A DNA stretch of 36,029 nt. Origin: a virus. Shown here in pieces: positions 11,427 through 35,796 of this stretch. The notes beneath the pieces are model-generated. The model was not told the origin of the DNA. It worked only from the letters and a program-made list of their open reading frames with translations, and made no database searches. How positions within the stretch are numbered: the first letter of the stretch is position 1; every line of letters begins with the position of its first letter. The DNA lies in IMG/VR virus record IMGVR_UViG_3300049893_003579, positions 1 to 36,029 of that record; one strand, 5' to 3'. The translations under genes were made by a program, and so were the position numbers.

Positions 11427-11447
11427 GAATGCCTCTCTTAAATTGGT

Positions 11448-11478
11448 GGACCCCCGGGTGTATCCTACCCAGGGGCCC
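11448..11478 (-). ncRNA. 12-bp minihelix with 7-nt loop and ACCA tail
   Basis: On the minus strand GGGCCCCTGGGT pairs with ACCCGGGGGTCC over 12 bp (two G-U pairs) around the loop AGGATAC, and the stem is followed directly by ACCA (11447-11444). Twelve pairs plus a seven-base loop and a discriminator-CCA is the geometry of a tRNA acceptor-T arm, although the loop lacks the T-loop consensus TTCRA. No U run follows, so a simple terminator is unlikely. It is 13 nt upstream of the next gene's Shine-Dalgarno, where it could be a processing signal or tRNA mimic. Confidence 0.5.
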
Positions 11479-11552
11479 GGTTGTAATCAGCTTGGGAGCT
11501 GCTGACTGCGTCTTCTTTCGAGGGAGCTACACGTTTAATCTGAAGCGTCAGT

Positions 11553-11699
11553 CCTTAGACTCACCCGTTCTGCCGCTAAACTACCGGACCGTAAGACCCG
11601 TTCGAGACTCGCATGCTTTGTCTCTGGTGGGTAAGCCCATGCGCCACCGTTTAAATCCGGCGCAGAGGTCCAGGCTGGACTTGAACCAGCGTTGATGAG
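11553..11699 (-). tRNA. permuted tRNA-like gene 2 (3' half precedes 5' half)
   Basis: Transcribed first is the 3' half (11699-11666): CTCATC, three bases, T stem GCTGG/CCAGC with the canonical loop TTCAAGT, then CTGGACC and a discriminator U, with no encoded CCA. After 75 nt of structured spacer (11665-11591) comes the 5' half (11590-11553): GGTCCGG, T8-A9, D stem GTTT/GAAC, D loop AGCGGCA with A14 and G18-G19, then GGTGA. The acceptor strands pair 7/7 (one G-U). GGTGA pairs with TCATC as an anticodon stem, so both halves fit one tRNA of about 71 nt. If the join falls at positions 35-37 the loop reads GTCTAAC, anticodon CUA; other joins give other anticodons, so identity is unassigned. The order is directly visible; function is inferred. 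Confidence 0.68.
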
Positions 11700-11784
11700 T
11701 TGTTTCAGCACTTCAGAGGTTGATTAGCTCTTGCCTCCCGCGGTCATTGGATAAACCTGTTGCGATAGCTTCAGGTTGATGTGT

Positions 11785-11930
11785 CACTTAGCGTCTGCCA
11801 TTCCGCCACTCTCCCAAGCTTACCGAGATATTAGACCCTCGTCGGCTGGGTTCTCGAACAATGCCTTGATCGATAGTGGGAGAGCCAGGACTCGAACCTG
11901 GATGAGTTACCTCTCGCGACGATTGTAAGC
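11785..11930 (-). tRNA. permuted tRNA-like gene 1, tRNA-Leu-like (3' half precedes 5' half)
   Basis: The 3' half (about 11930-11877) has T stem CCAGG/CCTGG with loop TTCGAGT (11901-11885), acceptor strand CTCTCCC (11884-11878) and discriminator A, followed by CTA rather than CCA. After a 61-nt spacer (11876-11816) comes the 5' half (11815-11785): GGGAGAG, T8-G9, D arm GCG/CGC with loop GAATGGCAGA, then TAAGT. Acceptor pairing is a perfect 7/7. The D arm and discriminator A resemble bacterial tRNA-Leu, and a long 24-nt segment before the T arm would be a type II variable arm. TAAGT can pair with GCTTA (11930-11926), but no candidate join gives a normal T33 or a Leu anticodon, so the anticodon loop is unresolved and this copy may be degenerate. 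Confidence 0.6.
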
Positions 11931-11956
11931 TTAAGGCTGAGCCTCAGCTTGCGCTA

Positions 11957-11977
11957 TCCCGGGACGATAGCCCGGGA
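11957..11977 (-). repeat. 7-bp hairpin at the head of the tRNA-like locus
   Basis: TCCCGGG-CTATCGT-CCCGGGA on the minus strand forms a very stable GC stem with a seven-base loop, 18 nt after the stop of the 245-aa gene. No U run follows. Its downstream flank (GATAGC, 11958-11953) can instead pair with GCTATC at 11769-11764 after the 5' half of permuted tRNA 1, so it may be one of two alternative structures. Confidence 0.5.
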
Positions 11978-11995: not shown

Positions 11996-12733
11996 TCAGC
12001 CGAACAAGAAATTGAACACCTTTCCGCCGACCTTCTGCTGTTCGACCTCGCGGGAGTTGGCTTCCTCACGCGCGAACTTGACAGCCTTCTGAAGGCGCTC
12101 GACTCGGTCCAGGATCTCAGCGACGCGAGACGCCGGGAGAGCACCCGAGAACTTGACGGTCTTCCAGAAGCCAGCGATCTGGTCCTCGAATCCCTCCTTG
12201 ACCTGGGCAGGGTGCTTGTCCGTCGCCGGAGCAAGAACGAGGGGCACGAACACCTTCTTCGACCGCGTGGTCTCCGCGGGCTTCGAAGCGTAGCAGCCCA
12301 CGTTCGGGTCGAGGGTCCACTCCTCAGAGGGGTCCAGGGTGGGGATCTTGCTGACGAAGGTATGGATGTCCACCAACTTCTTCTCGAGGAAGAGGAGGTA
12401 GGTCACCGGGACCTTCGTGGCAATGGTGACATCGCCCACAACCACGTCCGCCGTAGCGACGCAGTTGGCGTAGTCCTTCGTCGCAGTGACGTCGAAGAGG
12501 TCCGTCATGACCCGCGCGACGTCCTTCAGGAAGTCGCCTGCGTTGAGCTGCACCTTCGTGGCTTCCGGGGGAAGCTGCTCGCCGCCGTCCTCCTTGGGAC
12601 GATAGGTGCGAGAGATGCCCGTGATCAGAGCGGGCTTCTGCATCTTCTGATAGATCTCCGTGATGCCCGCGTGGGCCTTGTTCTTCACGGACTTCTCGAC
12701 AGCGATCACTTGACACAATTTTGTGCTGCTCAT
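11996..12733 (-). CDS. conserved protein of unknown function (DUF7873-like)
   Basis: A 245-aa protein. The N-terminal run (M-S-S-T-K-L-C-Q-V-I-A-V-E-K), the middle Y-R-P-K-E-D-G-G-E-Q-L-P-P-E and the terminal V-G-G-K-V-F-N-F-L-F resemble an uncharacterised family I recall from bacteria and phages (annotated DUF7873); I could not check this. Codon use is unusually regular and GC-rich (many AAG, GTC, ATC), suggesting high expression. No catalytic motif or signal peptide is seen. The ATG at 12733 is separated from the GIY-YIG stop by one base. The permuted tRNA-like locus follows immediately after its stop. Confidence 0.75.
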   Translation of the reverse strand: MSSTKLCQVIAVEKSVKNKAHAGITEIYQKMQKPALITGISRTYRPKEDGGEQLPPEATKVQLNAGDFLKDVARVMTDLFDVTATKDYANCVATADVVVGDVTIATKVPVTYLLFLEKKLVDIHTFVSKIPTLDPSEEWTLDPNVGCYASKPAETTRSKKVFVPLVLAPATDKHPAQVKEGFEDQIAGFWKTVKFSGALPASRVAEILDRVERLQKAVKFAREEANSREVEQQKVGGKVFNFLFG

Positions 12734-12734
12734 A

Positions 12735-13430
12735 TCATTTTCCCAAAGTCTGAGTTTCTTCTTGTTGAAATGACTCTAACTCATCTGAGACCAACTTTAC
12801 AAGTTCACGTTTCTGCTTCCAGTACTTGAGGAGTCTTTGACGATGAACTTCTCTGCCTTCTTCAGACATGGGTTTTCGTTTTACGCCAATCGCTGATTTG
12901 CGCTTCAATCCTAGTTCTCTGCGCTCGATCGCTCTCTTGGAGATGTTTTGACCCACTGACGGATCTCTCTTGACTCCCAAATTTGCTTCTCTAATGCGCC
13001 GAATTCCATCCTCAGACTTGGGAGGCGATGGAATCTTTCGCGCTTTACGAGTTTCGCTAATCTTTCGTCTCGTCTCTTCAGACTGAACGCGTCCCATAGC
13101 TGATCGTCTCTTCTTTTCACGCGTCTCATCACTTGGTGAAAAAGATCCTTCGCCGCCTTCGTTCATATTGTAACCTACGAGATGTGTACGCCATTCAAGA
13201 ACAAGTGAATGTTCTGCACTGAATGCGTCAGCTTCAGACTCATGCTCGGAGATGATAGTCATCTCAAACTTGTCAGGGCCATATTTCCTGATAGCTCTGT
13301 AGAGACGAGTCTCGTCTCCTCGTTCAGCGGCATAAAGATGAGCTCCAAACCGTTGTTTGGGATCGTTAGATTTTCCAACGTATCGTTTTCCATTGATAGT
13401 GTTGGTGATGCAATAGACAAATGATTTCAT
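12735..13430 (-). CDS. GIY-YIG homing endonuclease
   Basis: A 231-aa free-standing homing endonuclease of the GIY-YIG type, like the Seg proteins of T4. The nuclease domain occupies residues 1-95: V5-Y-C-I then R16-Y-V-G-K (the GIY and YIG equivalents), R27 in the following helix, a candidate catalytic Glu in A-E-H-S-L-V near 73, and G-Y-N-M-N-E-G-G-E-G at 86-95. The rest is basic with NUMOD3-like repeats (S-E-E-T-R-R-K-I-S-E-T). It sits between the RNR gene and the 245-aa gene and has its own sigma70-like promoter. Codon use is more A/T-rich than its neighbours, fitting recent acquisition. Confidence 0.9.
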   Translation of the reverse strand: MKSFVYCITNTINGKRYVGKSNDPKQRFGAHLYAAERGDETRLYRAIRKYGPDKFEMTIISEHESEADAFSAEHSLVLEWRTHLVGYNMNEGGEGSFSPSDETREKKRRSAMGRVQSEETRRKISETRKARKIPSPPKSEDGIRRIREANLGVKRDPSVGQNISKRAIERRELGLKRKSAIGVKRKPMSEEGREVHRQRLLKYWKQKRELVKLVSDELESFQQEETQTLGK

Positions 13431-23930: not shown

Positions 23931-26822
23931 TCAGGGCTTGGGAAGCTGCTTCAGAATCTTCTTGACCGACTCAAGAACAGAGGGCGGGTTGGAGAACTTG
24001 CCATATGCATCTGTGTAGACGAACGTCCAGCTGGTCACAAACTTTCCCGGTGAGATAGAATGATTGATCTGCGTGCAGTTGTAGAGATTGTCCAGCGTCG
24101 TTCCCGTCTTGAAGTCGACGAAGAACTGCTGATAGAGCTGTGCGATGGGACAGCCCAGAGACGTGATTGTCAACTGTCCTGGGAACGTCCTCAAGGGCAA
24201 GTTGTTTGGCTCCTCAAGACCATTTGCCGATGGAAGTGTGGTTCCCCCGCCCACTCCCTTGTAGGCATTGTTGGCATTGATGATGTTTGCCGCCGACTGC
24301 AAGCTGTCTGTCTTGGATGCGAGCTGTGCGGTCATGACCAGCGTTCCATTCGCCCCCACAATGATGTTGGGCGCTGTTTGACGAACGTGGTCCACGACGC
24401 TCTGACGATTTTTTTCGATAGAGACCTTGACAAACCCAGGCCGATCGATGACCTTTAGATTGCCTTCCGCAATATCTTGCATGATCAGAGTGCCGAGCAT
24501 GCCTTTAGTAGTGTCTGATCCGCCAGAGCCCTTTTGCTGGAGCACTTTCATTTCTTTTGCAATGAGAGCATTCAGATCTTCGTTGCTCTTAATGTTGCCG
24601 ACAGTGAATCCCTCGCCTGTAGCAATGATCTTTGACAGGAGCTTGTAGGGTGTGTTCGTCTTGTCGTAGATGTGAATTCTCTTGATGATATTGCTGTCAG
24701 AAGTCGGAGCATTAATGTCCTTCTCTGATCTCTGCAAATACTCAATTGTAGAAGATGATGTCGGCTTCAAAGAATTGTTAGCTTGACCCGTCTCCACCAA
24801 CATCTCGATGGCAGGCCGCTGCAGGGTGCCCCAGCGAGCTGTCCAGTTGGTCATTTTTCCCTCGTACTCTTTCTCATTTTTGGAGATCTCAGTTTTAGAG
24901 GGATCGAATGGCAGATATGCATCTTGCATTCCGTATCCGAGCGCACGATTGTCGTTGAACTGTGTGTTGATGACGAGGGACAAGAATCCTTCAATCGTCA
25001 TCTTTGGATTCTGCTTGAGCGCAGCGCTGTATGAATAGGAAAGAGCTCGTATGTCGATTGGGAACTCTGCCACGCTGTGGCCACTTACTGGTCCACAGGA
25101 GTCGTTGAGAGCATAGAAGCAGATCTGCAGCTCCTTGCAGTCGTTGAGACTGAGGAGTGCAGGGGCGACAAAAGTCGTGAACAGCTTACCAAATGACACT
25201 ACACCATTGGGCATCTTGTCAGCATTTGGCAGCTTTCCATTCGGCTTTTTGACGGCAGCAATCACATCTACGAGCTCTGGTCGGAAGAATTCTTTTCTCT
25301 TATCGTCGGCCAAGAAGGGATCGACTGAACCGGGTGCCACGAGAGCTTCGAATTTCTTGCTCGCAGTTTTTTTCGCTGTATCCTCAATTTGCTTCTTGAA
25401 CGATGGTCGATTTGGGCCGTTGACGTACAGCTTGTCGAGACTATCCTCTAGATCTTTGGCTTCTTGAGCGGACAAAGTCTTCTTCTTGCCGTCTCTGAGA
25501 GACTTGACGAGCTGCTTGATGTCTGATTTGACTTTGTCGTCGCTGATGTCCGGGAAAGATCCCACAGCTCCTGCGTTTAGAATCTGATACGTTCTGACGT
25601 CGGCATCAGTCTGATCTCCACCCGGGATGTTCTTCTTCAAGTTCGCAATTGTCTCGACGACCTTGCTCATGTCCTCAAGAAGCTTTGACATGGACTGATC
25701 ATCGTCTGTGACATATGCCTGATTTGCCGTTGTCGAACCTTTTGTGACCATCTCGATCGAGACAGACACTTGACCCGTCGCGTCAAATGAGAAAGACGTA
25801 TTTGCGACCATCCATCTCTCACGAACTGACATGCGCTCATTGATGAATTTTGCATACACGTCATCAATTCCTCGTCCATCGGCGCTTCGTCCTCTGGGCG
25901 CGAGCCATCCATATGTCGTGACTATCGTCGCCGTCGCAGAAGCAATCTGACCACGCAGGAACGTGGAGAACTCAGACAGACGACTCTTGTCATGGATCTT
26001 GAGCTTCAGAGAACCCTTCTTGTGTGCCATGGCACCAGCGCCTGCATTGACGATCGACACGTCAAGTCCCGTGATAGACGCAAAAGGAACGAAAGGTTTG
26101 ACGTCAACGAGGCGTGTCTTTCCGTCGCCCGCAAGCGTAGACATGTTCGTGAGCGTCTGGGGAGCTAAAAACATCTCCATGCCAGAGTAAGCCGTCACAA
26201 TGTTGTCTTTTGTGGTGGTCTGATCAAGAGCACGATCTGCTTCAGTCAGATTCGCGCTCGCCAGCTCAGTAGAGCCCACTAGAAATCTCAACATGCTGGG
26301 CGTGGTCAAATTTGTGGCAGAAGCAGGAGGACTGTTGGGACCCGTATAGACAGGTGCTCTGTCAATCTTGAACTCCACATCAAGGTAGGGCACCATCTGA
26401 GACGCAAAGATGCTGGGAATGTAGTTGAGAAAGAACTCTACGTCTGATGTATTGCGGGCCGCAGGAGTCACAGCGGGATTAGACGTCACAAATACTGTCA
26501 GATTCTTGTCCTTGTCAGTCTTCAATCCGGGCACAATGTCGTTAAGCGTCTTTTTGAGCCAATACTCGTCAGGCGACTTCCCCAATTTCAGCGGTTCAGA
26601 AGTCGCCGTGGAGATGACATGAGTGTCTGTGGCTTCGTATTGCCCGTCAAGTAGAGATTTGATGCCTTGCTCGCCATCTTTCCCCATGAACGACACGAAG
26701 TTCTCCAGAAAAAGCTCTCTCAAGTAATGCTGAATTGACTTCTTCTTGACTGCTTCGGCGCCCATCAGAACGTCAATGGGAGACAGAAATCCGTAAATCT
26801 TCTGGATGTCAAATTCAGCCAT
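23931..26822 (-). CDS. large tail/baseplate protein (hub-like)
   Basis: A 963-aa protein with no recognised catalytic motif. Its place after the tape measure, the 1025-aa protein and the LysM-like protein is that of a tail hub or baseplate protein. Residues near 255-375 (S-L-K-L-K-I-H-D-K-S-R-L-S-E-F then T-T-Y-G-W and S-F-S-F-D-A-T-G-Q-V-S-V-S-I-E-M) read as beta-rich hub-like domains, and the C-terminal L-T-I-T-S-L-G-C-P-I-A-Q-L-Y ... T-S-W-T-F-V-Y resembles tail hub strands. ATG 26822 shares a base with the upstream TGA (TGATG). No lysozyme domain is seen. The virion role is strong by context; the exact part is inference. Confidence 0.75.
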   Translation of the reverse strand: MAEFDIQKIYGFLSPIDVLMGAEAVKKKSIQHYLRELFLENFVSFMGKDGEQGIKSLLDGQYEATDTHVISTATSEPLKLGKSPDEYWLKKTLNDIVPGLKTDKDKNLTVFVTSNPAVTPAARNTSDVEFFLNYIPSIFASQMVPYLDVEFKIDRAPVYTGPNSPPASATNLTTPSMLRFLVGSTELASANLTEADRALDQTTTKDNIVTAYSGMEMFLAPQTLTNMSTLAGDGKTRLVDVKPFVPFASITGLDVSIVNAGAGAMAHKKGSLKLKIHDKSRLSEFSTFLRGQIASATATIVTTYGWLAPRGRSADGRGIDDVYAKFINERMSVRERWMVANTSFSFDATGQVSVSIEMVTKGSTTANQAYVTDDDQSMSKLLEDMSKVVETIANLKKNIPGGDQTDADVRTYQILNAGAVGSFPDISDDKVKSDIKQLVKSLRDGKKKTLSAQEAKDLEDSLDKLYVNGPNRPSFKKQIEDTAKKTASKKFEALVAPGSVDPFLADDKRKEFFRPELVDVIAAVKKPNGKLPNADKMPNGVVSFGKLFTTFVAPALLSLNDCKELQICFYALNDSCGPVSGHSVAEFPIDIRALSYSYSAALKQNPKMTIEGFLSLVINTQFNDNRALGYGMQDAYLPFDPSKTEISKNEKEYEGKMTNWTARWGTLQRPAIEMLVETGQANNSLKPTSSSTIEYLQRSEKDINAPTSDSNIIKRIHIYDKTNTPYKLLSKIIATGEGFTVGNIKSNEDLNALIAKEMKVLQQKGSGGSDTTKGMLGTLIMQDIAEGNLKVIDRPGFVKVSIEKNRQSVVDHVRQTAPNIIVGANGTLVMTAQLASKTDSLQSAANIINANNAYKGVGGGTTLPSANGLEEPNNLPLRTFPGQLTITSLGCPIAQLYQQFFVDFKTGTTLDNLYNCTQINHSISPGKFVTSWTFVYTDAYGKFSNPPSVLESVKKILKQLPKP

Positions 26823-27118
26823 CAAGAAATCAGTCTCTCGACTGCCCTCAAGTCTGGGACGATAATGACAGTGCCCGGCGGAATCTGCATGCCCCAGCCG
26901 ATGTCAGACGCTGCTGCCAGGACCCACCAGTAGCGGCCTTCTCCATAAACGGTTCCTGCCAGAGCATCCAAGCGATCGCCCCATGTTGTGGTGAACTTCT
27001 TAGTGATGGGAAGTGAACCATTTTTGATCGAAGCACGAATGAGATTCGTAGCTCTTGCTGTTCCAAGCATAGAGCCTGCTTCCAATCTGACGTCAGTCTG
27101 GTATCTGCTGAAGGACAT
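26822..27118 (-). CDS. LysM-like baseplate/tail protein (T4 gp53 or tail protein X type)
   Basis: A 98-aa protein whose C-terminal 50 residues form a LysM-like fold: T-T-W-G-D-R-L-D-A-L-A, then Y-G-E-G-R-Y-W-W-V-L-A-A-A, and P-P-G-T-V-I-I-V-P-D-L. This pattern is typical of the small LysM proteins that link tail tube and baseplate in contractile-tailed phages. G-G-A-A-G-G precedes the start, eight bases before ATG 27118. It is coupled by TGATG to the hub-like gene, and the order large protein, LysM, hub supports a contractile or long tail. Confidence 0.85.
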   Translation of the reverse strand: MSFSRYQTDVRLEAGSMLGTARATNLIRASIKNGSLPITKKFTTTWGDRLDALAGTVYGEGRYWWVLAAASDIGWGMQIPPGTVIIVPDLRAVERLIS

Positions 27119-27121
27119 GTC

Positions 27122-30100
27122 TCACCTTCCCTTGTTGGCAAGTGGACCGATCGGATAGATTGGAGCTCTGTTTGAGCCCTCGTGGTCGAGACCGGGCGCA
27201 ATGTCGTGAATGGGTGAGAACGTGATCGTGATCTTGCAGCCCTTTGGAGCTTTCTTTCCCGGGTCTATCTCCCATGTCATGCGGTCGTACCAGTCAAAGT
27301 CCATGCCCTCAATGAAGCCAGCGATTCCCTTTCCGCCCGCAGAGCGGAACGACTTGGCAATGACGTTGCCTTTGCCCTTCTCGTTATCGTTCATGAATTC
27401 AGCCGCATTCTGAGCATAGTCTCCCTCCGGGATTCCCGCTTTGGTGCGCGCTTTGGTGTCCGCCTTCTTAAGGGTCTCATTTGTGGGCGTAAGTTCAGAC
27501 TTCAAAAATGAGAAACTATTTCCGACAACCATCGACTTTGGATTCTTGGAGTTGTCATAAACGAATCGAGCCTGGGCAATGTCATCATCGGTCAGAGAGT
27601 CGATCTCGTTTTTCTTGGCGATCCTTACAGTGCCCAGAACGTGCATGTCATCAAGCTCTTTGTCAATGTCGACAATCAAACCCTTTGGATGATAGACTTT
27701 TGCGTCGATTGGTGGGGGTGGATTTCCAATGATAGCAATTGAAGAAGGAGCAACTGATGGTCCTTTGATAGACTTTGGTATGAAAGAGTTTCCGCTCTCA
27801 GTGATGGAATTTTTAAGCTCTTCTTTCTGATATTTCTGGTACGACTCAAGCTGACCTGCATTGGGCGGAGTAATCTCTGCGCCATTGAACTTTGTGCCAC
27901 CGTAAGAGTATCCAAACAGGCGCGCGAGATTGAACTTGGAGTAATTGCTCTGGATCAGGTCTCCGATTCTCACGCGACACATGGGAGGGGCGCCGATGAG
28001 CTGACTGAACGGAGCTCGCATTGTGTAGTTGTCAGTCTTGATCATCTTCCCCTCAGTGAACTGAGGGTACATGAGAGTCGTCAGCTTGTTGATCTTGAGC
28101 CACATGGAGTCAAAGTCTTCCTGACTCGTTGCAGCAACATAGAAAGAGAATCCAAGCTTTCTTGCCGTGCTCTTGTATGTTTTGACAGCCTCGACTCGAC
28201 CCTGGCCATCTGACGCTTCGTATGTCGCAGCGAGCCCATCTGAAAGGCTCGTGAGAAAAGCATGGAAGCTGACGATCTCGTTTGTTCGAAGGTCGTGAAA
28301 GTAGAAGGGCATATACTCAGCATCTAGTGCTGATTCCATTGCCTCTCGAATCTCTGTAGGAATTCTGCCGCTGCTCTCTTGAACATACAAGTCTCTCTTG
28401 AGGCCCGAATTTGTGTAATTGGCATCAGACGAGTACAATATTGAAGGCATCATCGATGGGACAGAAAGAGCGCTGTCTCTTCCTCCCGCAGCGTCTGCTT
28501 GAGCTTTCCTGACGCTTGCAGGAAGAATAAGCATGTCGGGAGATCGATAGGATGACCAAGCGAGTCTCGTGGAGTTTCTGAGGCGATTTTTGACTTGAGC
28601 GTTGACATTCCACGTAGCATCAATTGCCGAAGTCTTTGGACCAGCACCGTTGTTGGCAAAACGATCGACGTAGTCCGGGTTGTCTAGCAAGATCTGGTCG
28701 CCCAGCTGAGCAAACACATTGACTGCTCTGATGAACTTTGACTCTCTGAAGACATCGATGAGCGCAAAGAAGTTTTTCACTCCGCTCATGATGTTTGTCT
28801 TGAAGCCGTCGACCAAGCGCGACATGGCATCGCCGATCTGCAGGAAAGATCTGTTGACTGATCTTGCCACGACAGAGTCGTATCCTGGATTTTGGGCGGC
28901 GTGCAGGGCGCCCGAAGCAAGTGCGGACAAGAAGCTGTCACCCTCAAATCCAAAGAAGGCGAGGGCTCCCGTGATGACGCACTGCTCTGTGGGGTGAATC
29001 GTCTTCTTGATGCCGATCATTTCCCAGAAGTTGAAGCTGCCCTGCAAGATGGACTTGATGAGTCCACCGACATTGCTGGGATCTGCTGTGGGTCCTCTTC
29101 CCGTGCTTGAACCGATGGGATACCGACCCAATGCGTCAAATGCCGTGTTGTTGCCAGTCTTAGATGAACCCACACCAAACGGTGGCTTGAATAGCGCCAA
29201 AAGTCCTGTGATGGCCCCGATTGACACTCCCAGCGTCGCCACGAGAGAGATGGACAGCAGCTGCATTCCAAAGTTCGAGGCGCCCGAGTAGTGGTCCAAC
29301 GCATTGTTGAGAGTTCCCCACGACAGAGAGGCAGGCTTGATAAGCTGGTGTTCGGAGATTGAGCTTTCAGTGAGAGTCTTCAAGACATCTGAAGCCTCGA
29401 GCAATTCTTTCTCAATTCGAGAGAGTCCCAACTGGGCCACGCCGGGCAAAAGGGCGCCTGCTTCCACTCCTCCCGTGGAAGGATTGACTCCATCAGATGT
29501 AGACTTCAGCTCAAGGCCTGCTCGAATAGACAGAGTTGTTCCCACTTGAGCAAGCTGACCGAACGACACATTTTTGGAGTCGTCTGCGGGTGCAGAGACG
29601 CCCGACTTGTACTTGGTCGAAAACTGCTTTAGACCCAGCTGATCCTGAGCGGCAGTCTCGTAGTTTCCGCCGAACCGATTGACCAACAGCGCATTTGTGT
29701 ACTTCGACACCTCACTGTCAGGATCGGGAGCTTGACGCAGCAAGTCGTTTCCGTCCACAGTAGTGTTGAACTTGAACTCTCTGCCCTTCTTGACGTTCAG
29801 ATTGGCTGCAGCAGACGACTTTGTGTCGGGCAGCTTCTTGTCAAATGCAGACGCATTAGATGTCGGAGTTGGAGAAACGGGCGAGCCAAAGTTGTCAGTG
29901 AGTGTGACGGGCGTAGGTTCCTCGCCTTCAGTGTGGCTCACAGGATAGAAGTTGGCAGCGCGGGGAGCACCTCCAGTGCCCTCAATTCCCATCGAGGTTT
30001 TGCTGAGATACGATGCCAACGTCCTTTTCGTAGATTTGGACAGATCTGGATTCGAGCCGTCAACAGAGATGTCTCCCGAACTCCACTTAGTCTTCGCAGG

Positions 30101-30199
30101 AGGATCCGCATCCTGCTTAACGCCCACATCATAGGTGTGCATGTCTCCATCAATGGAGAAGCCGCCCGTTCCTGTGTCAAGCTTGCCGTCAGTCGCCAT
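27122..30199 (-). CDS. 1025-aa virion protein with a hydrophobic segment, tail/baseplate assembly
   Basis: A large protein of unknown family. Residues 1-220 are polar and low in complexity, probably disordered. A hydrophobic stretch near 311-337 (L-L-S-I-S-L-V-A-T-L-G-V-S-I-G-A-I-T-G-L-L-A-L) could span a membrane. The C-terminal third has L-G-F-S-F-Y-V-A-A-T-S then W-L-K-I-N-K-L-T-T-L-M-Y-P-Q-F and C-R-V-R-I-G-D-L-I, a layout seen in tail-completion and tube-initiation proteins that sit next to LysM proteins. It ends G-P-L-A-N-K-G-R. It probably joins the tape measure to the baseplate and may enter the envelope during DNA entry; both points are inference. Confidence 0.7.
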   Translation of the reverse strand: MATDGKLDTGTGGFSIDGDMHTYDVGVKQDADPPAKTKWSSGDISVDGSNPDLSKSTKRTLASYLSKTSMGIEGTGGAPRAANFYPVSHTEGEEPTPVTLTDNFGSPVSPTPTSNASAFDKKLPDTKSSAAANLNVKKGREFKFNTTVDGNDLLRQAPDPDSEVSKYTNALLVNRFGGNYETAAQDQLGLKQFSTKYKSGVSAPADDSKNVSFGQLAQVGTTLSIRAGLELKSTSDGVNPSTGGVEAGALLPGVAQLGLSRIEKELLEASDVLKTLTESSISEHQLIKPASLSWGTLNNALDHYSGASNFGMQLLSISLVATLGVSIGAITGLLALFKPPFGVGSSKTGNNTAFDALGRYPIGSSTGRGPTADPSNVGGLIKSILQGSFNFWEMIGIKKTIHPTEQCVITGALAFFGFEGDSFLSALASGALHAAQNPGYDSVVARSVNRSFLQIGDAMSRLVDGFKTNIMSGVKNFFALIDVFRESKFIRAVNVFAQLGDQILLDNPDYVDRFANNGAGPKTSAIDATWNVNAQVKNRLRNSTRLAWSSYRSPDMLILPASVRKAQADAAGGRDSALSVPSMMPSILYSSDANYTNSGLKRDLYVQESSGRIPTEIREAMESALDAEYMPFYFHDLRTNEIVSFHAFLTSLSDGLAATYEASDGQGRVEAVKTYKSTARKLGFSFYVAATSQEDFDSMWLKINKLTTLMYPQFTEGKMIKTDNYTMRAPFSQLIGAPPMCRVRIGDLIQSNYSKFNLARLFGYSYGGTKFNGAEITPPNAGQLESYQKYQKEELKNSITESGNSFIPKSIKGPSVAPSSIAIIGNPPPPIDAKVYHPKGLIVDIDKELDDMHVLGTVRIAKKNEIDSLTDDDIAQARFVYDNSKNPKSMVVGNSFSFLKSELTPTNETLKKADTKARTKAGIPEGDYAQNAAEFMNDNEKGKGNVIAKSFRSAGGKGIAGFIEGMDFDWYDRMTWEIDPGKKAPKGCKITITFSPIHDIAPGLDHEGSNRAPIYPIGPLANKGR

Positions 30200-30204
30200 T
30201 CAGC

Positions 30205-30456
30205 CTACTTCGCCTGGGAGTCTGATTTCCCCTCACTAAGTAGCTCCTCGTCCGCTTCCAGCAACCGCTTTCGAAATCCGTCGGGATCTCGCTCAGCCTC
30301 CGCACGAATTCCCTCGACGACGCCGGCGACGCTAAGCAGAAACTCTTCAGCAAAAGCCTGAACGAACCTGCGTTCCTTGTCTGACTTGGCGACTTCAAGC
30401 ACCGCCTTGAAAGTCGGATCATTGTGCAAAAGCTTGATGTACTCTTCGCGCGTCAT
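30205..30456 (-). CDS. small helical protein after the tape measure
   Basis: An 83-aa, acidic, helical protein (M-T-R-E-E-Y-I-K-L-L-H-N-D-P-T-F) of unknown family. It lies between the tape measure stop (9 nt away) and the 1025-aa gene (5 nt away), so it is surely co-transcribed with the tail genes. Small genes here can be chaperones or minor tail proteins. No frameshift site is seen, and tail assembly chaperones normally precede the tape measure, so that role is not favoured. Confidence 0.68.
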   Translation of the reverse strand: MTREEYIKLLHNDPTFKAVLEVAKSDKERRFVQAFAEEFLLSVAGVVEGIRAEAERDPDGFRKRLLEADEELLSEGKSDSQAK

Positions 30457-30465
30457 GGGACAATC

Positions 30466-33400
30466 TTATGCCTTCTGCTGAGCAACAGCGCTTGAGTACG
30501 GCTGAGCGTTGTTGGCAGGTGTGTAGCCGATAGTTGCTTGCTGCACTTTGTCCTTGGGCACACCCTCAATAGCGGCATTGATTCGGTCGCGGATGACCGA
30601 CTTCTTGCGGTTGATGAGGATCTGCTCGACGTCATCGACCTTCATGGTGACAGTCATCTCTACATTGATGACCACGTCCTTGTTGTTGATCGTGTACTTG
30701 CCGGCACCTCCGAGAGCGAGGCCATCAGAAAGAGCGGTGAGGCTAGTCTTGATCTTTGCTGCGTCTCCCTTTGACAGAGCATCCGACAACTCATTCGCTT
30801 TTTCAAACATTTTCTGAGCAGCATCCAGGGAGTTCTTGAGACCCTCGAACGTCTTGGCAGACGCAGTTATAGACGAGAACATGCTGTTTACACGCTTCAA
30901 GGTCTCTCCGGCTTCGCCATTCTTTCCCGACATCATTGAGTCGATGGTAGAAACAGACTCAATGATCTGCTTGATGGGTGACTCCTTTCCTCCCCATCCG
31001 TGTGCCAAATCGTAGAACAAGAATCCAAGCTTTTGGAATGTGTCTCTCAACGTCTCATTCAAGTTGCGATCTCCAAGCATTCCAAACGTGATGTTCACGC
31101 CCATGCCCGATAGAGTCTTGAAGACCTCTGAGACCGACTTGATGATGTCAAAAATCTTCGTGACGCTTGTGATCTTAGCGGCAAAGTCTGCATTTCCCGC
31201 CTTCATCAAGGCAGGATCATCAATAACAGCCGCAAGAGCTTTGATCAGATCGGGCAACGCAGTCTGGACTGACTTGAACACTTCAACGATCGTGGGGGTG
31301 CCTTCGGAAATGGTCTTGACAGTCTCAGTTGCTGAAGTTCCTGCGTTTCTGTCGAAGTTCTTCTTGGTCGATGTAGTGGATGTCTTGGGCTTCATCGCGC
31401 TGAAGATATTGCCGACGAACGAAGACACGGTTCCGATCATTCCCATGATCTTCTCCATGGTCTCCATCTTCGCCTTGGACGGAATGTCAAGGTTCTCAAT
31501 CTTCGCCATGATGCTGTTGATGATGGAGATGAGTCCTTCGTTTGGATTTGCGATCTTTGCGATGATGGAGTTGATTGCGTTGGCAACAGCCATGACACCA
31601 TAGGTGTCGAGAGAAGTCACATCACCCGCTTCAGTCTTGGTTGTCCTTGTCATTCCCGACAGAGACGACATAATCGACGTGATCATTTGCGACATGCTCT
31701 GAATGATGCTTCCGATGATGGGTCCCGTCGCCTTGATGACTTCAATCTTGTCAGCAGGGATTCCAGCGACGCTGTTAGAGACGCTGGTCACCATGTTGGT
31801 GATGGAAGACATAATGGTGGTGAGAAAATTCGTCAGACCGTCCATTGCAGTCTTGATCTTCGCTTGGTCTGTCTCAGCGGTCTGGTACCAGTGCGTCATC
31901 TTGTCCTGGATCTCTCCGATGGGACCTGTCAACCCTCCAATGAGAGACGCGATTCCACTGAAGATCTGTCCGATTGTCCCAGCTGCTTGGAGCTTCTGCT
32001 CTGGAATTTCTTTGATTCCATCGATGATCTTGTCGACCATTCCCTTGAATCCCGACTTGCCGTCGCTGCCCTCGATCATCGTCTTGATGACCTGATTAGC
32101 CTTGTCGAGTCGTGCATTGATCGAGTCGCCCGACTCAAAGAATCCAAAGTCCATCGACTTGAAGATTGCGCCCACAGAATTCGTCAGATTGCCGATCGCT
32201 CCCATGATCTCGGCAAAAGCCTTGGACTTGGTGAGGACTGCATTTGGGTCCTCTTTGATGAGAGACAGGCTGTTCATCAGTCCAATGACAGTGCCCACCA
32301 TGTAATCGATGGACATCTGAATTGCTTTCATGCCGGCAAGGATAGCGAGGCCTCCAATTCCAAAAGTGCCCACAACATAAGTGCCGATCAGAGCAGCAGC
32401 TGTGATTCCCATCCCAGCCTTCTTGAAGAGCTCCATCATGACGTCCATGAGCATTCCGAACTTTTGGACGCCCGAGCCGTCGATCTCTCCTGAACGCTTG
32501 ATCACGTCCTTGCCCATGTCGATTATGCCGTTCATCACCTTGGCAAGTGCGAACATTCCCACAGTAATAGCGGGGGCGAGAGGAACAATGAGGATTCCGA
32601 TGAGAGCCGCAGACTTGATGAATCCGACAGCTTGGTCGAACAGCCTCGACATTGTGTCCATGATTGCTTGGACGACAGCGATGTCGCCGAGCTGGATGTT
32701 TGCAGCTTGGACTTTTTTGACTGCAGCAAGGAATGCAAACATTCCTCCCGCCATGATGCCTGCCATTCCGAGCAGACCAATGAGAACGAGGGCAGCCTGA
32801 GGCCCAGCAAGTGCGAGACCCAAGGCCATCGCAGCACCAGCAACGAGAGCAGATGCTCCCATGACGAGGGGCAGCGCCTGGAAGATCGCGATCGTTTTAT
32901 CGATCGTGGTGGGATCTGCTCCGATCTTCTTCACAGCGTAAAGACCGAGGAGGAAGGGAGCCAGTCCAGTGACCATCACTGCTGCCATAGCAAGGAGACC
33001 CGGCAGAATGACTTCTGCACCTCCTGCTTCCATGACAGCGCCCAGAGCCATTGCAGCAAGTGCCATGCCGCCAGCGGCGAGCATGACGACATCCATAGCA
33101 AGGAAGATGCTGCTTACGATGCCGATGTCCTTGAGGCCGACATTGAACTTTCGAACAATCGCCATTGCCCCAAAGAACGACACAAGACCGATCGCCATGA
33201 TAGCAGAAACAGCAGCCAGGCCTTTGAGTATGCTAGATTGCTCGGAGCCCCATGTTCTGCTTGCCATCATTAGAGATGCTGCACCACTTGCAGCTATCTC
33301 CATGGACTTGCCGACGACGGCGAGGACGAGACCTGCCTTCAAGATGTCTTCGACCTTGACATTCTTGACAACGGCAAGCGCTGCCATGAAGGAAACGAGT

Positions 33401-35796
33401 CCAACTGCCATCAGGCCCGCGACTCCGAGAATCATCTTCATGACTGCTGGGAAGTTGATCTTAGAGTTAGATGCTGCCTCCATCTTCTCAGTGGCTTCCT
33501 TGCTCGGCAGAGCGGCAGTTGTGGCTTCGATCGCAGTGCTCATGGCAGCCTTGCCCTTGGCGGCCTGCGCTGCTGCGCCGATTCCCTTTCCGAGGCCACC
33601 GACGATCAATCCGCCAGCTTGCTTCGCGAGACCACCCGACATAGCCCCGACCACGCCCTGAAGAATTGCGGGACCAAGGAGCAACGCGACGGCGCCGCCG
33701 ATCATCTTTTGGCCCGTCTTCGTCTCCAAGAGAGCATGCTTGATCTTATCGAAGATCGCGGATGCCATGTCCTTCAAGACGGGCCACAGGGTGTCAGCAA
33801 ACGTCTTGAACACATCCAGAAGAGGCTTCACCCATGGGGACACAGCCGCCCCTGCGCCGCTCACATCGGGCATCTTGGGATCTTTGATGAAAGCGACGAC
33901 GACCTTGAGCATATCTGCAAGCTCACGGATCGCCCACTTTGACATCTCAGCAAAGATGTTGACCACGGCGAGTCCCATCTTCTTCATCGCGCCCAACACT
34001 TGCTTGCCGCTCTGAGACTCGCTGTCGAAGAAATCGAAGAAGGTCTTCTTCAGGTTCTTCATGAGCTTCTCAAACGCAGAAGAGAAGTCTCCCTTGTCTC
34101 CCGCGAAGTCATTCAGAACCTTCATGACTCCATCAGCGAGGCTCTGAAACTTCGCAGGATTGAACATGTCTCGCAGTCCCTTGATGAAGTCCTTGAGACC
34201 CGGGAAGTTCTCGACGAACATCTTGCCCAGCTTGATTCCCGTCTGATACACGATCATGAGAGACCGATTGACGTTCATCATCAGCTCTCTGAACTCTGGA
34301 ATCTGCTGGACGCCAAGAGTGAATCCCTTGAGGAGGTGCTCCAAGAAGCCGCCCATCTTCTCTCCCGAAGGCGTGAGACGCTCGATTGCGTCGCTCAGCT
34401 TCTTCATGGCGTCGGCCTGCGTCAGAGTGGCCTCAGCGGCCTTCTCCGACTCAGTCTTGATCTTTGCAAGAGACACGCCCTGGTTCTTTTGGGCGAGGGC
34501 AGTGTCAAGGACTCCAATCTCCAATCCGCTCTGTTGGGCGATGAGCATCCTCTCCTGATAGGACATCTTTGCCAAGTCCTTGCCCGTGGCTTGGAAAGAC
34601 TTTCTCAAGATCTCCATCTTCTCAGCGGTTGACTGAGCTGACATCAGCTCCATCGCATCGATGTTTGTTCCAAACTGCTCATTGAGTGTGGACACAGACT
34701 CTGCTGCAGAGTCAAATGTCGCAAACTTGTCCATCAGAGCAGTCATCTTGTCAAAGGAGATTCCCAGCTTGTTTGCATAGGTGACCGATGCTGCCAGCTC
34801 CTTGTTGGACAAGTGGCCGAAGTGACCCATGTCCTGCATGGCCTTGGACATGTCACGAGAGATGACCTTGGCGTCTAGGCCAAATGCTTTGGCAAGGCCG
34901 TAGGACTGCTTCGTCATGTCGTTCAGCACAGTCCCCATGTCCTTGCCCATTGATGCACCGCGGACTGCGATTCCAGCCATGGCATCGTCTGCAATTCCTA
35001 GACCCTTCTGGTATGCGAGGAGAGCGCCGCCGTTCTTTTTGAACTCTTCGGCGTTGGCAGCAAATTGGGGACCCATGGCCTTGGCGACTGCGGTCACCTT
35101 CTCCATCACTTGCGCCAAGTTGCCAAACACTCTCCAGGCGGAGAGGCCCGTGTCCGAGAATCCCTTCATCTCCTTCGATGTGGAAATGATCGCGCTTGAA
35201 GAGACAGATGAGAAGGCGCCGAACTCCTCTCTCACCTTCTCCATGGCAGCAGCAAGTTCATTGCCGCCCATGCCGTTCTGCGCCATGTCTGTGAGGCTCT
35301 TCAGCATTCCAAAGGGAATTGCAATGATGGCTTTGCCCACCTGCCACAGAGAATCCACGACAGAAGAAAAGATGGAGGCGCCGCCCTTCATCAGAGCAGA
35401 CACATTCTTGAACCCCTGACGTAGTCCTGTGAGAGCCCCAGCAGCAGCTGTCACTGCGGGAGTGTACTTGCTGTTTAGGGTCTTTGCTGCTTTCTCCACG
35501 ACGCCATTGAGACCCTTAGCTTCTTTCTGAGTCTTGTCGAGGTCCTTCTCAACCTTCTTCCAGTTCTCTGGAGAGAAGAAAGAGGTGGAGCTGGTGTCTA
35601 GCTTCTCGAAGTCCTCCGACATCTTGTTGAGGACATCACGCAGACCGTCGATGATCTTCTGCTGATCAGTGAAGGAGTCTGTGGTCTCCCTGACGTTCTT
35701 CTTGATGCCCTCTGTCAGATTCTTGACAGTCTCCAACGTCTTCGGGTCCATGGGAGTCCCGCTTCCGCTTCCACTTCCGCCTGTGGGATCAGCCAT
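30466..35796 (-). CDS. tail tape measure protein
   Basis: A 1776-aa protein, by far the longest in the window. It has a Gly/Ser-rich start, long helices with coiled-coil character (residues 20-110), a phage tape-measure-like M-G-K-D-M-G-T-V-L-N-D-M-T-K region near 285, and a block of hydrophobic segments between about 690 and 1120 typical of tape measures that enter the host membrane. At about 0.15 nm per residue it predicts a tail near 260 nm. Four related hydrophobic units spaced about 70-75 residues apart are visible (see findings). The ATG at 35796 shares a base with the upstream stop (TAATG). No peptidase or lysozyme domain is recognised. Confidence 0.92.
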   Translation of the reverse strand: MADPTGGSGSGSGTPMDPKTLETVKNLTEGIKKNVRETTDSFTDQQKIIDGLRDVLNKMSEDFEKLDTSSTSFFSPENWKKVEKDLDKTQKEAKGLNGVVEKAAKTLNSKYTPAVTAAAGALTGLRQGFKNVSALMKGGASIFSSVVDSLWQVGKAIIAIPFGMLKSLTDMAQNGMGGNELAAAMEKVREEFGAFSSVSSSAIISTSKEMKGFSDTGLSAWRVFGNLAQVMEKVTAVAKAMGPQFAANAEEFKKNGGALLAYQKGLGIADDAMAGIAVRGASMGKDMGTVLNDMTKQSYGLAKAFGLDAKVISRDMSKAMQDMGHFGHLSNKELAASVTYANKLGISFDKMTALMDKFATFDSAAESVSTLNEQFGTNIDAMELMSAQSTAEKMEILRKSFQATGKDLAKMSYQERMLIAQQSGLEIGVLDTALAQKNQGVSLAKIKTESEKAAEATLTQADAMKKLSDAIERLTPSGEKMGGFLEHLLKGFTLGVQQIPEFRELMMNVNRSLMIVYQTGIKLGKMFVENFPGLKDFIKGLRDMFNPAKFQSLADGVMKVLNDFAGDKGDFSSAFEKLMKNLKKTFFDFFDSESQSGKQVLGAMKKMGLAVVNIFAEMSKWAIRELADMLKVVVAFIKDPKMPDVSGAGAAVSPWVKPLLDVFKTFADTLWPVLKDMASAIFDKIKHALLETKTGQKMIGGAVALLLGPAILQGVVGAMSGGLAKQAGGLIVGGLGKGIGAAAQAAKGKAAMSTAIEATTAALPSKEATEKMEAASNSKINFPAVMKMILGVAGLMAVGLVSFMAALAVVKNVKVEDILKAGLVLAVVGKSMEIAASGAASLMMASRTWGSEQSSILKGLAAVSAIMAIGLVSFFGAMAIVRKFNVGLKDIGIVSSIFLAMDVVMLAAGGMALAAMALGAVMEAGGAEVILPGLLAMAAVMVTGLAPFLLGLYAVKKIGADPTTIDKTIAIFQALPLVMGASALVAGAAMALGLALAGPQAALVLIGLLGMAGIMAGGMFAFLAAVKKVQAANIQLGDIAVVQAIMDTMSRLFDQAVGFIKSAALIGILIVPLAPAITVGMFALAKVMNGIIDMGKDVIKRSGEIDGSGVQKFGMLMDVMMELFKKAGMGITAAALIGTYVVGTFGIGGLAILAGMKAIQMSIDYMVGTVIGLMNSLSLIKEDPNAVLTKSKAFAEIMGAIGNLTNSVGAIFKSMDFGFFESGDSINARLDKANQVIKTMIEGSDGKSGFKGMVDKIIDGIKEIPEQKLQAAGTIGQIFSGIASLIGGLTGPIGEIQDKMTHWYQTAETDQAKIKTAMDGLTNFLTTIMSSITNMVTSVSNSVAGIPADKIEVIKATGPIIGSIIQSMSQMITSIMSSLSGMTRTTKTEAGDVTSLDTYGVMAVANAINSIIAKIANPNEGLISIINSIMAKIENLDIPSKAKMETMEKIMGMIGTVSSFVGNIFSAMKPKTSTTSTKKNFDRNAGTSATETVKTISEGTPTIVEVFKSVQTALPDLIKALAAVIDDPALMKAGNADFAAKITSVTKIFDIIKSVSEVFKTLSGMGVNITFGMLGDRNLNETLRDTFQKLGFLFYDLAHGWGGKESPIKQIIESVSTIDSMMSGKNGEAGETLKRVNSMFSSITASAKTFEGLKNSLDAAQKMFEKANELSDALSKGDAAKIKTSLTALSDGLALGGAGKYTINNKDVVINVEMTVTMKVDDVEQILINRKKSVIRDRINAAIEGVPKDKVQQATIGYTPANNAQPYSSAVAQQKA

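Follow-up and report, generated by a model that had tools for sequence, protein, structure and literature searches.

Where the 3′ half of a tRNA-like sequence precedes its 5′ half, and a further helix extends outward from the anticodon stem, the question is whether the two halves are joined into a tRNA or belong to some other kind of RNA. Such a locus lies in the IMG/VR virus record IMGVR_UViG_3300049893_003579, of which the whole stretch analysed here (positions 1 to 36,029; 36,029 nucleotides) is called the window. A preliminary description had noted a 9-bp helix with one G-U pair beside a permuted tRNA body, and the sequence confirms it: on the minus strand, TCTGAAGTG (11717-11709) forms nine pairs, one of them G-U, with CGCTTCAGA (11547-11539). 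This helix, here P1, sits outside the stem GGTGA (11565-11561)/TCATC (11698-11694), itself confirmed, and it does extend the anticodon stem of the tRNA-like module as had been proposed. The asymmetric internal loop described between the two helices is present, with sides of 10 nt (11708-11699) and 13 nt (11560-11548) instead of about 9 and 12 nt. We also agree that this is not a standard 3-4-3 bulge-helix-bulge, the joint being occupied by the 10/13-nt asymmetric loop with a conserved UNRAAYUGA. The minimum-energy fold of the window region contains both P1 and a second helix, P2 (11730-11725/11529-11524). The folding energy of the region is unremarkable (z −1.06), so that the case for an RNA structure rests on covariation.

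Covariation in homologues had been named as one check for this helix, and P1 passed it. Sixty-four non-redundant homologous units were parsed around the T-arm and D-arm, with ATCRA upstream and TTAAACG downstream as anchors. In fixed register, P1 contained on average 6.22 of 7 standard pairs across the 64 units, compared with 3.10 ± 0.17 pairs in a swapped-partner control (maximum 3.64 among 2000 shuffles), and with a slightly flexible register 61/64 units had at least 6 of the 7 pairs (control mean 10, maximum 18 of 500). Sixty distinct P1 sequences were found among the 64 units, and compensatory changes occurred at all nine P1 pairs in a 40-sequence alignment. P1 pairing is maintained while the P1 sequence is free; the helix exists and has been kept in evolution.

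The same 40-sequence alignment, submitted to RNAalifold, yielded P2, P1, the T-arm, the acceptor and the D-arm unaided, with a compensatory change in 27 of the 29 pairs. With 42 pairs taken from a single Streptomyces sequence as the structure, the covariation score was 0.710 vs 0.225 when shuffled (0/500), and 86.4% of cells were paired vs 39-49% when the structure was slid. P2 covaries (96.2% of cells paired), and the T-arm and acceptor of the tRNA-like module carried by P1, here module 2, are paired in 98.5-99.3% of cells in homologues; pairing is weaker in a third helix, P3 (64.7%), and in the anticodon stem (68.5%), partly from alignment gaps. A covariance model, R1, built from the 40-sequence alignment with the window and its closest relative left out, scores 74.9 bits (E 2e-19) in the window, matching it over module 2 and its arm, arm 2.

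Judging from the conserved sequence blocks, the region appears to be one arm of a large, unannotated and undescribed structured RNA of about 400-450 nt with two tRNA look-alike caps. Its predicted parts in the window, with the gene upstream, are as follows, in 5′ to 3′ order.

11996-12733, minus strand: gene of 245 aa for DUF7873 (Pfam PF25283), directly upstream of the RNA; putative protein partner
11431-11976, minus strand: whole predicted structured RNA, comprising arm 1 with module 1, arm 2 with module 2 and a terminal hairpin; ends approximate, from conserved blocks in a 29-locus full-length alignment
11902-11929, minus strand: module 1, 3′ side, with anticodon-stem strand CTTA (stem read by hand from the sequence) and extra arm GAG-GTAA-CTC
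11878-11901, minus strand: module 1 T-arm CCAGG TTCGAGT CCTGG and acceptor 3′ strand CTCTCCC, from sequence
11791-11815, minus strand: 5′ acceptor strand of module 1 (GGGAGAG) with its D-arm; permuted, the 3′ part coming first; from sequence
11725-11730, minus strand: P2 5′ strand GAGCTA, partner 11529-11524, from covariation and the minimum-energy fold
11718-11724, minus strand: 5′ side of internal loop 2, ATCAACC, which hardly varies in alignment A4 (consensus ATCRANN)
11709-11717, minus strand: P1 5′ strand TCTGAAGTG, earlier called the leader, from sequence and covariation
11699-11708, minus strand: internal loop 1, 3′-half side CTGAAACAAC, from sequence
11694-11698, minus strand: module 2 anticodon-stem strand TCATC, partner GGTGA 11565-11561, from sequence
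11667-11690, minus strand: module 2 T-arm GCTGG TTCAAGT CCAGC and acceptor 3′ strand CTGGACC, from a permuted-tRNA scan and homologue pairing
11591-11666, minus strand: 76-nt linker between the acceptor 3′ and 5′ strands of module 2, from sequence parsing
11567-11590, minus strand: module 2 acceptor 5′ strand GGTCCGG, TA and D-arm, from the permuted-tRNA scan and R1 match
11561-11565, minus strand: module 2 anticodon-stem strand GGTGA, from sequence
11548-11560, minus strand: internal loop 1, 5′-half side GTCTAAGGACTGA, with consensus UNRAAYUGA before P1 in the alignment
11539-11547, minus strand: P1 3′ strand CGCTTCAGA, earlier called the trailer, from sequence and covariation
11532-11538, minus strand: 3′ side of internal loop 2, TTAAACG, which hardly varies in the alignment
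11524-11529, minus strand: P2 3′ strand TAGCTC, from covariation, R1 and the minimum-energy fold
11448-11478, minus strand: terminal hairpin GGGCCCCTGGGT-AGGATAC-ACCCGGGGGTCC, from sequence and homologue hairpins with a GGNTA-type apex

Arm 2 runs from P3 through a loop, P2, internal loop 2 (ATCRA/TTAAACG), P1, internal loop 1 and the anticodon stem (GATGG/CCATC in its equivalent at locus L002) to the tRNA-like cap. The caps keep the T-loop, the D-loop GG and a 7-bp acceptor stem, and some phage modules are very tRNA-like, with a Leu-type D-arm and an extra arm. The acceptor linker, 76 nt in the window, is 7-11 nt long in all but one of 18 bacterial units. The strands of arm 1 also appear to covary in bacterial copies (GGAGCG/CGCTCC, GGAACA/TGTTCC, GGAGTG/CACTCC), a reading made by hand, as were those of the module 1 lower arm and of a kissing pairing. 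A plain hairpin with the flanking arm sequence kept takes the place of module 1 in 15 of 77 bacterial contigs, all of them Streptomyces (a script gave 19, four of which keep the module by eye); module 2 is kept at these loci (L189, L202, L210, L241, L246 and ten more). Module 1 copies of phage loci L115 and L163 bear a small hairpin between the D-arm and the anticodon stem, on the side opposite to the class II tRNA extra arm. A third, Gly-like tRNA after module 2 was considered and rejected, since comparison of homologues shows a terminal hairpin and linker there.

The RNA and DUF7873 travel together, by synteny and by co-occurrence. Relatives were drawn from viral contigs, GenBank phages and bacterial genomes, and a permuted-tRNA scan gave 72 matches in 131 kb downstream of DUF7873 vs 5 in 457 kb elsewhere, with no match on the opposite strand. 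Model R1, for whose training part of each contig set had been used, placed the RNA directly downstream of DUF7873 on the same strand in 77/80 bacterial contigs (E below 1e-15) and in about 73/80 viral contigs (E below 1e-8), the viral count including one contig via an identical contig and a few partial matches. DUF7873 was present in 6/198 actinobacterial genomes, and R1, run on 34 such genomes, found the RNA in all 5 that have DUF7873 and in none of the 29 that lack it; the positives are large and probably related genomes and the negatives were chosen by handle number, so that this comparison is support and not a phylogenetically corrected test. In Herpetosiphon the RNA is not next to DUF7873 but 1.8 Mb away in the same genome; the two H. 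aurantiacus loci (L261, L262) lie beside unrelated genes, for a chloride channel and a glycosyltransferase, and for an ADP-ribosylglycohydrolase.

The carriers include actinobacterial, cyanobacterial, Rhizobium, Vibrio and jumbo Klebsiella phages, as well as bacteria of Streptomyces, Nocardia, Chloroflexota, Armatimonadota, Acidobacteriota, Myxococcota/delta-proteobacteria and Deinococcales. In the cultured phages examined (Rhodococcus NiceHouse, Gordonia Phendrix and Ziko, Arthrobacter Mimi, Rhizobium RHph_TM16 and Vibrio D505), the RNA stretch is at most partly annotated; several annotations are blank there for a few hundred bases, and in Ziko and D505 short open reading frames have been called in the stretch. 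Divergent copies in two cyanophages (L083, L084) and in a jumbo Klebsiella phage (L086) match R1 partially, those of L084 about 2 kb downstream of DUF7873.

The protein encoded upstream of the RNA passes the Pfam PF25283 cut-off (27 bits) at 347 bits (E 7.9e-104), and its AlphaFold model has a mean pLDDT of 89.9. No family other than DUF7873 matched, and neither the PDB nor the viral models gave a confident fold match that would mark it as a nuclease or ligase: the best PDB chain, 3kdq, has no known function (Foldseek E 0.15; VIA-align Z 8.8, rmsd 7.8), and one viral model of an unnamed protein gave E 3.5e-4 at TM 0.2. A nuclease or ligase role was accordingly set aside, a missing fold match being weak evidence and not proof. 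One homologue (L090:3001-3735) has an in-frame TAG at codon 15 of an otherwise intact DUF7873, for which a sequencing error or stop-codon recoding is possible. In the window, the gene immediately upstream of DUF7873 resembles GIY-YIG homing endonucleases (12735-13430, minus strand). No literature on DUF7873 or on a permuted tRNA-like phage RNA was found in an open library that omits most subscription papers and all preprints.

Large phage and bacterial non-coding RNAs such as GOLLD, ROOL and OLE often occur in tRNA-rich phage regions. The present RNA resembles them in being large, conserved and unannotated, and none of the three matches it in Rfam at any reported threshold. With tmRNA, including its permuted two-piece form, it shares a tRNA-like domain on a larger RNA, a partner protein and possibly an acceptor CCA; unlike tmRNA it has two modules, each with a D-arm, and the Rfam tmRNA models give no gathering-level match. 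No Rfam family in fact reaches threshold, and YrlA (RF02553) alone matches weakly, on both modules and at many loci, its scores of 21-37 bits lying below the gathering score of 69. YrlA RNAs are 90-150 nt long and have a single module; Rsr is bound by their stem and PNPase by their tRNA-like domain, which DusA and TruB also modify (PMC8394870). The likeness to the YrlA/Rsr system is architectural: a permuted tRNA-like domain with D, T and acceptor arms, the acceptor closed by a loop, stands on an extended stem that is made by the flanks and replaces the anticodon arm. Unlike YrlA, the present RNA measures about 450 nt, has two modules and conserved ATCRA/TTAAACG and UNRAAYUGA loops, and is accompanied by DUF7873 instead of rsr. 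Given the shared architecture on the one hand and the larger RNA, second module and other partner on the other, it is described here as Y-RNA-like and not classed as a Y RNA. In one acidobacterial genome that has this RNA (G003), RtcB lies at a different locus, together with a weak match to TROVE and two YrlA matches that are stronger.

It is therefore reasonable to suggest, from sequence comparison, that the locus probably encodes a Y-RNA-like, tRNA-mimicking ribonucleoprotein with DUF7873, in which P1 would be a structural or protein-docking helix of arm 2. The gene order DUF7873-RNA, seen in synteny and co-occurrence, would keep protein and RNA together; the conserved loops and helices of the arms could then be bound by DUF7873, as their co-occurrence suggests, with P1 fixing how the two conserved internal loops are placed relative to each other and the anticodon stem serving as the point at which the cap joins the arm. 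The caps might be bound by a cellular factor that recognises tRNA, such as a nuclease, a modification enzyme or a translation factor. By analogy with YrlA, whose cap binds PNPase and whose stem binds Rsr, the RNA would be expected to tether its protein to such a partner, or to act as a decoy for it. As part of this best explanation, the cap is a tRNA mimic rather than a tRNA gene awaiting splicing. Against a pure mimic stands the NCCA that follows the acceptor strand in 26/64 units, which is more than a mimic needs; it may be a remnant of a tRNA ancestor, or a sign that the ends are processed so that they can be charged.

Processing of this kind enters two further readings. Our results leave some small room for an undescribed class of large ribonucleoprotein, made of the two-cap RNA of roughly 450 nt and DUF7873, whose caps would be cut by RNase P, giving several RNA pieces with free CCA ends, and which could act on tRNA metabolism or translation. 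It is doubtful that the linkers are cut, by RNase P on the 5′ side and by 3′ processing to the encoded CCA, into a nicked three-piece complex analogous to two-piece tmRNA, with two chargeable acceptor ends and held together by P1 and P2. The retained tRNA elbow elements would suit such a multi-piece RNA, as would the position of the NCCA, which falls exactly after the acceptor and inside a short loop, also in bacteria (7/18 units); however, NCCA is missing in 38/64 units, and many bacterial linkers measure just 7-9 nt.

A joined tRNA requires a 5-bp anticodon stem and a 7-nt loop with U33. On the reading that these are true permuted tRNA genes, protein- or RNA-catalysed splicing at internal loop 1 would join the halves, and RNase P and a 3′ nuclease would remove the linker. 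Permuted tRNA genes of Cyanidioschyzon and Thermofilum share with the present locus the order of 3′ and 5′ parts and an extended helix at the joint, and here the 3′ half lies upstream of the 5′ half with a full T-arm, a D-arm and complementary 7-bp acceptor strands, an internal loop enclosed by a helix at the joint, and NCCA encoded in the units mentioned. The RNA ligase RtcB was found in 11/11 bacterial genomes checked, though it is common in controls too. The anticodon-loop signature is nevertheless missing: ‘position 33’ is T in 24/58 and A, C or G otherwise (background T about 0.30), the anticodon stem has 6-8 contiguous bp in 33/58, and the conserved loop bases keep a fixed distance from P1, not from the anticodon stem. 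Unlike those genes, moreover, the locus has no bulge-helix-bulge and sits in a bacterial or phage setting, within a large conserved RNA whose P2, P3 and ATCRA/TTAAACG loop lie far outside the tRNA and are unneeded by any tRNA product. Module 1 is dispensable, as its replacement by a hairpin indicates, several phage copies of it carry the extra hairpin on the D-arm side, and DUF7873 matches no catalytic fold or family. A tRNA gene of this type is thus unlikely, and the reading of P1 as the mark of a splicing substrate or tRNA-joining ribozyme, which the preliminary description had suggested, is not supported.

It is highly unlikely that this is an atypical YrlA-type RNA with Rsr (Ro60) bound to its arm and DUF7873 as an accessory protein, for although YrlA matches weakly on both modules and Rsr (TROVE) is above cut-off in 7/11 bacterial genomes checked, those matches stay below the gathering score, the RNA is too long, TROVE is without a match in 3/11 genomes and in the window record (a fragment) and below cut-off in a fourth genome, and at least one genome has a separate YrlA/Rsr/RtcB locus.

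Three other candidates were rejected. ARAGORN and Rfam at curated thresholds find no tRNA or tmRNA in the window, which speaks against an ordinary gene of either kind, a silence to be expected for the tRNA-like parts, which lie in permuted order. A permuted self-splicing group I or II intron has no Rfam match in the region even at E 10. An amber suppressor was suggested by CTA in the window loop, which in homologues belongs to the conserved loop motif and not to an anticodon.

A tRNA-mimicking ribonucleoprotein with DUF7873 would be a second system, after YrlA, in which permuted modules mimic tRNA, here with two mimics on one RNA, and would give DUF7873 a testable role. The conserved RNA-protein pair, common to unrelated phages and several bacterial phyla, has seemingly been overlooked because its tRNA parts are permuted, which leaves tRNA finders blind, and because it has no Rfam family. 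If phages use the RNA to handle tRNA-directed host factors, this could be tested directly in cultured phages, for example Gordonia phage Phendrix or Arthrobacter phage Mimi. Elsewhere in the window, the minus strand encodes three large proteins (23931-35796; 964, 1025 and 1776 aa), none with a PHROG match. Phendrix also carries an unannotated tmRNA gene (L080:2069-2597; RF00023, E 3e-33).
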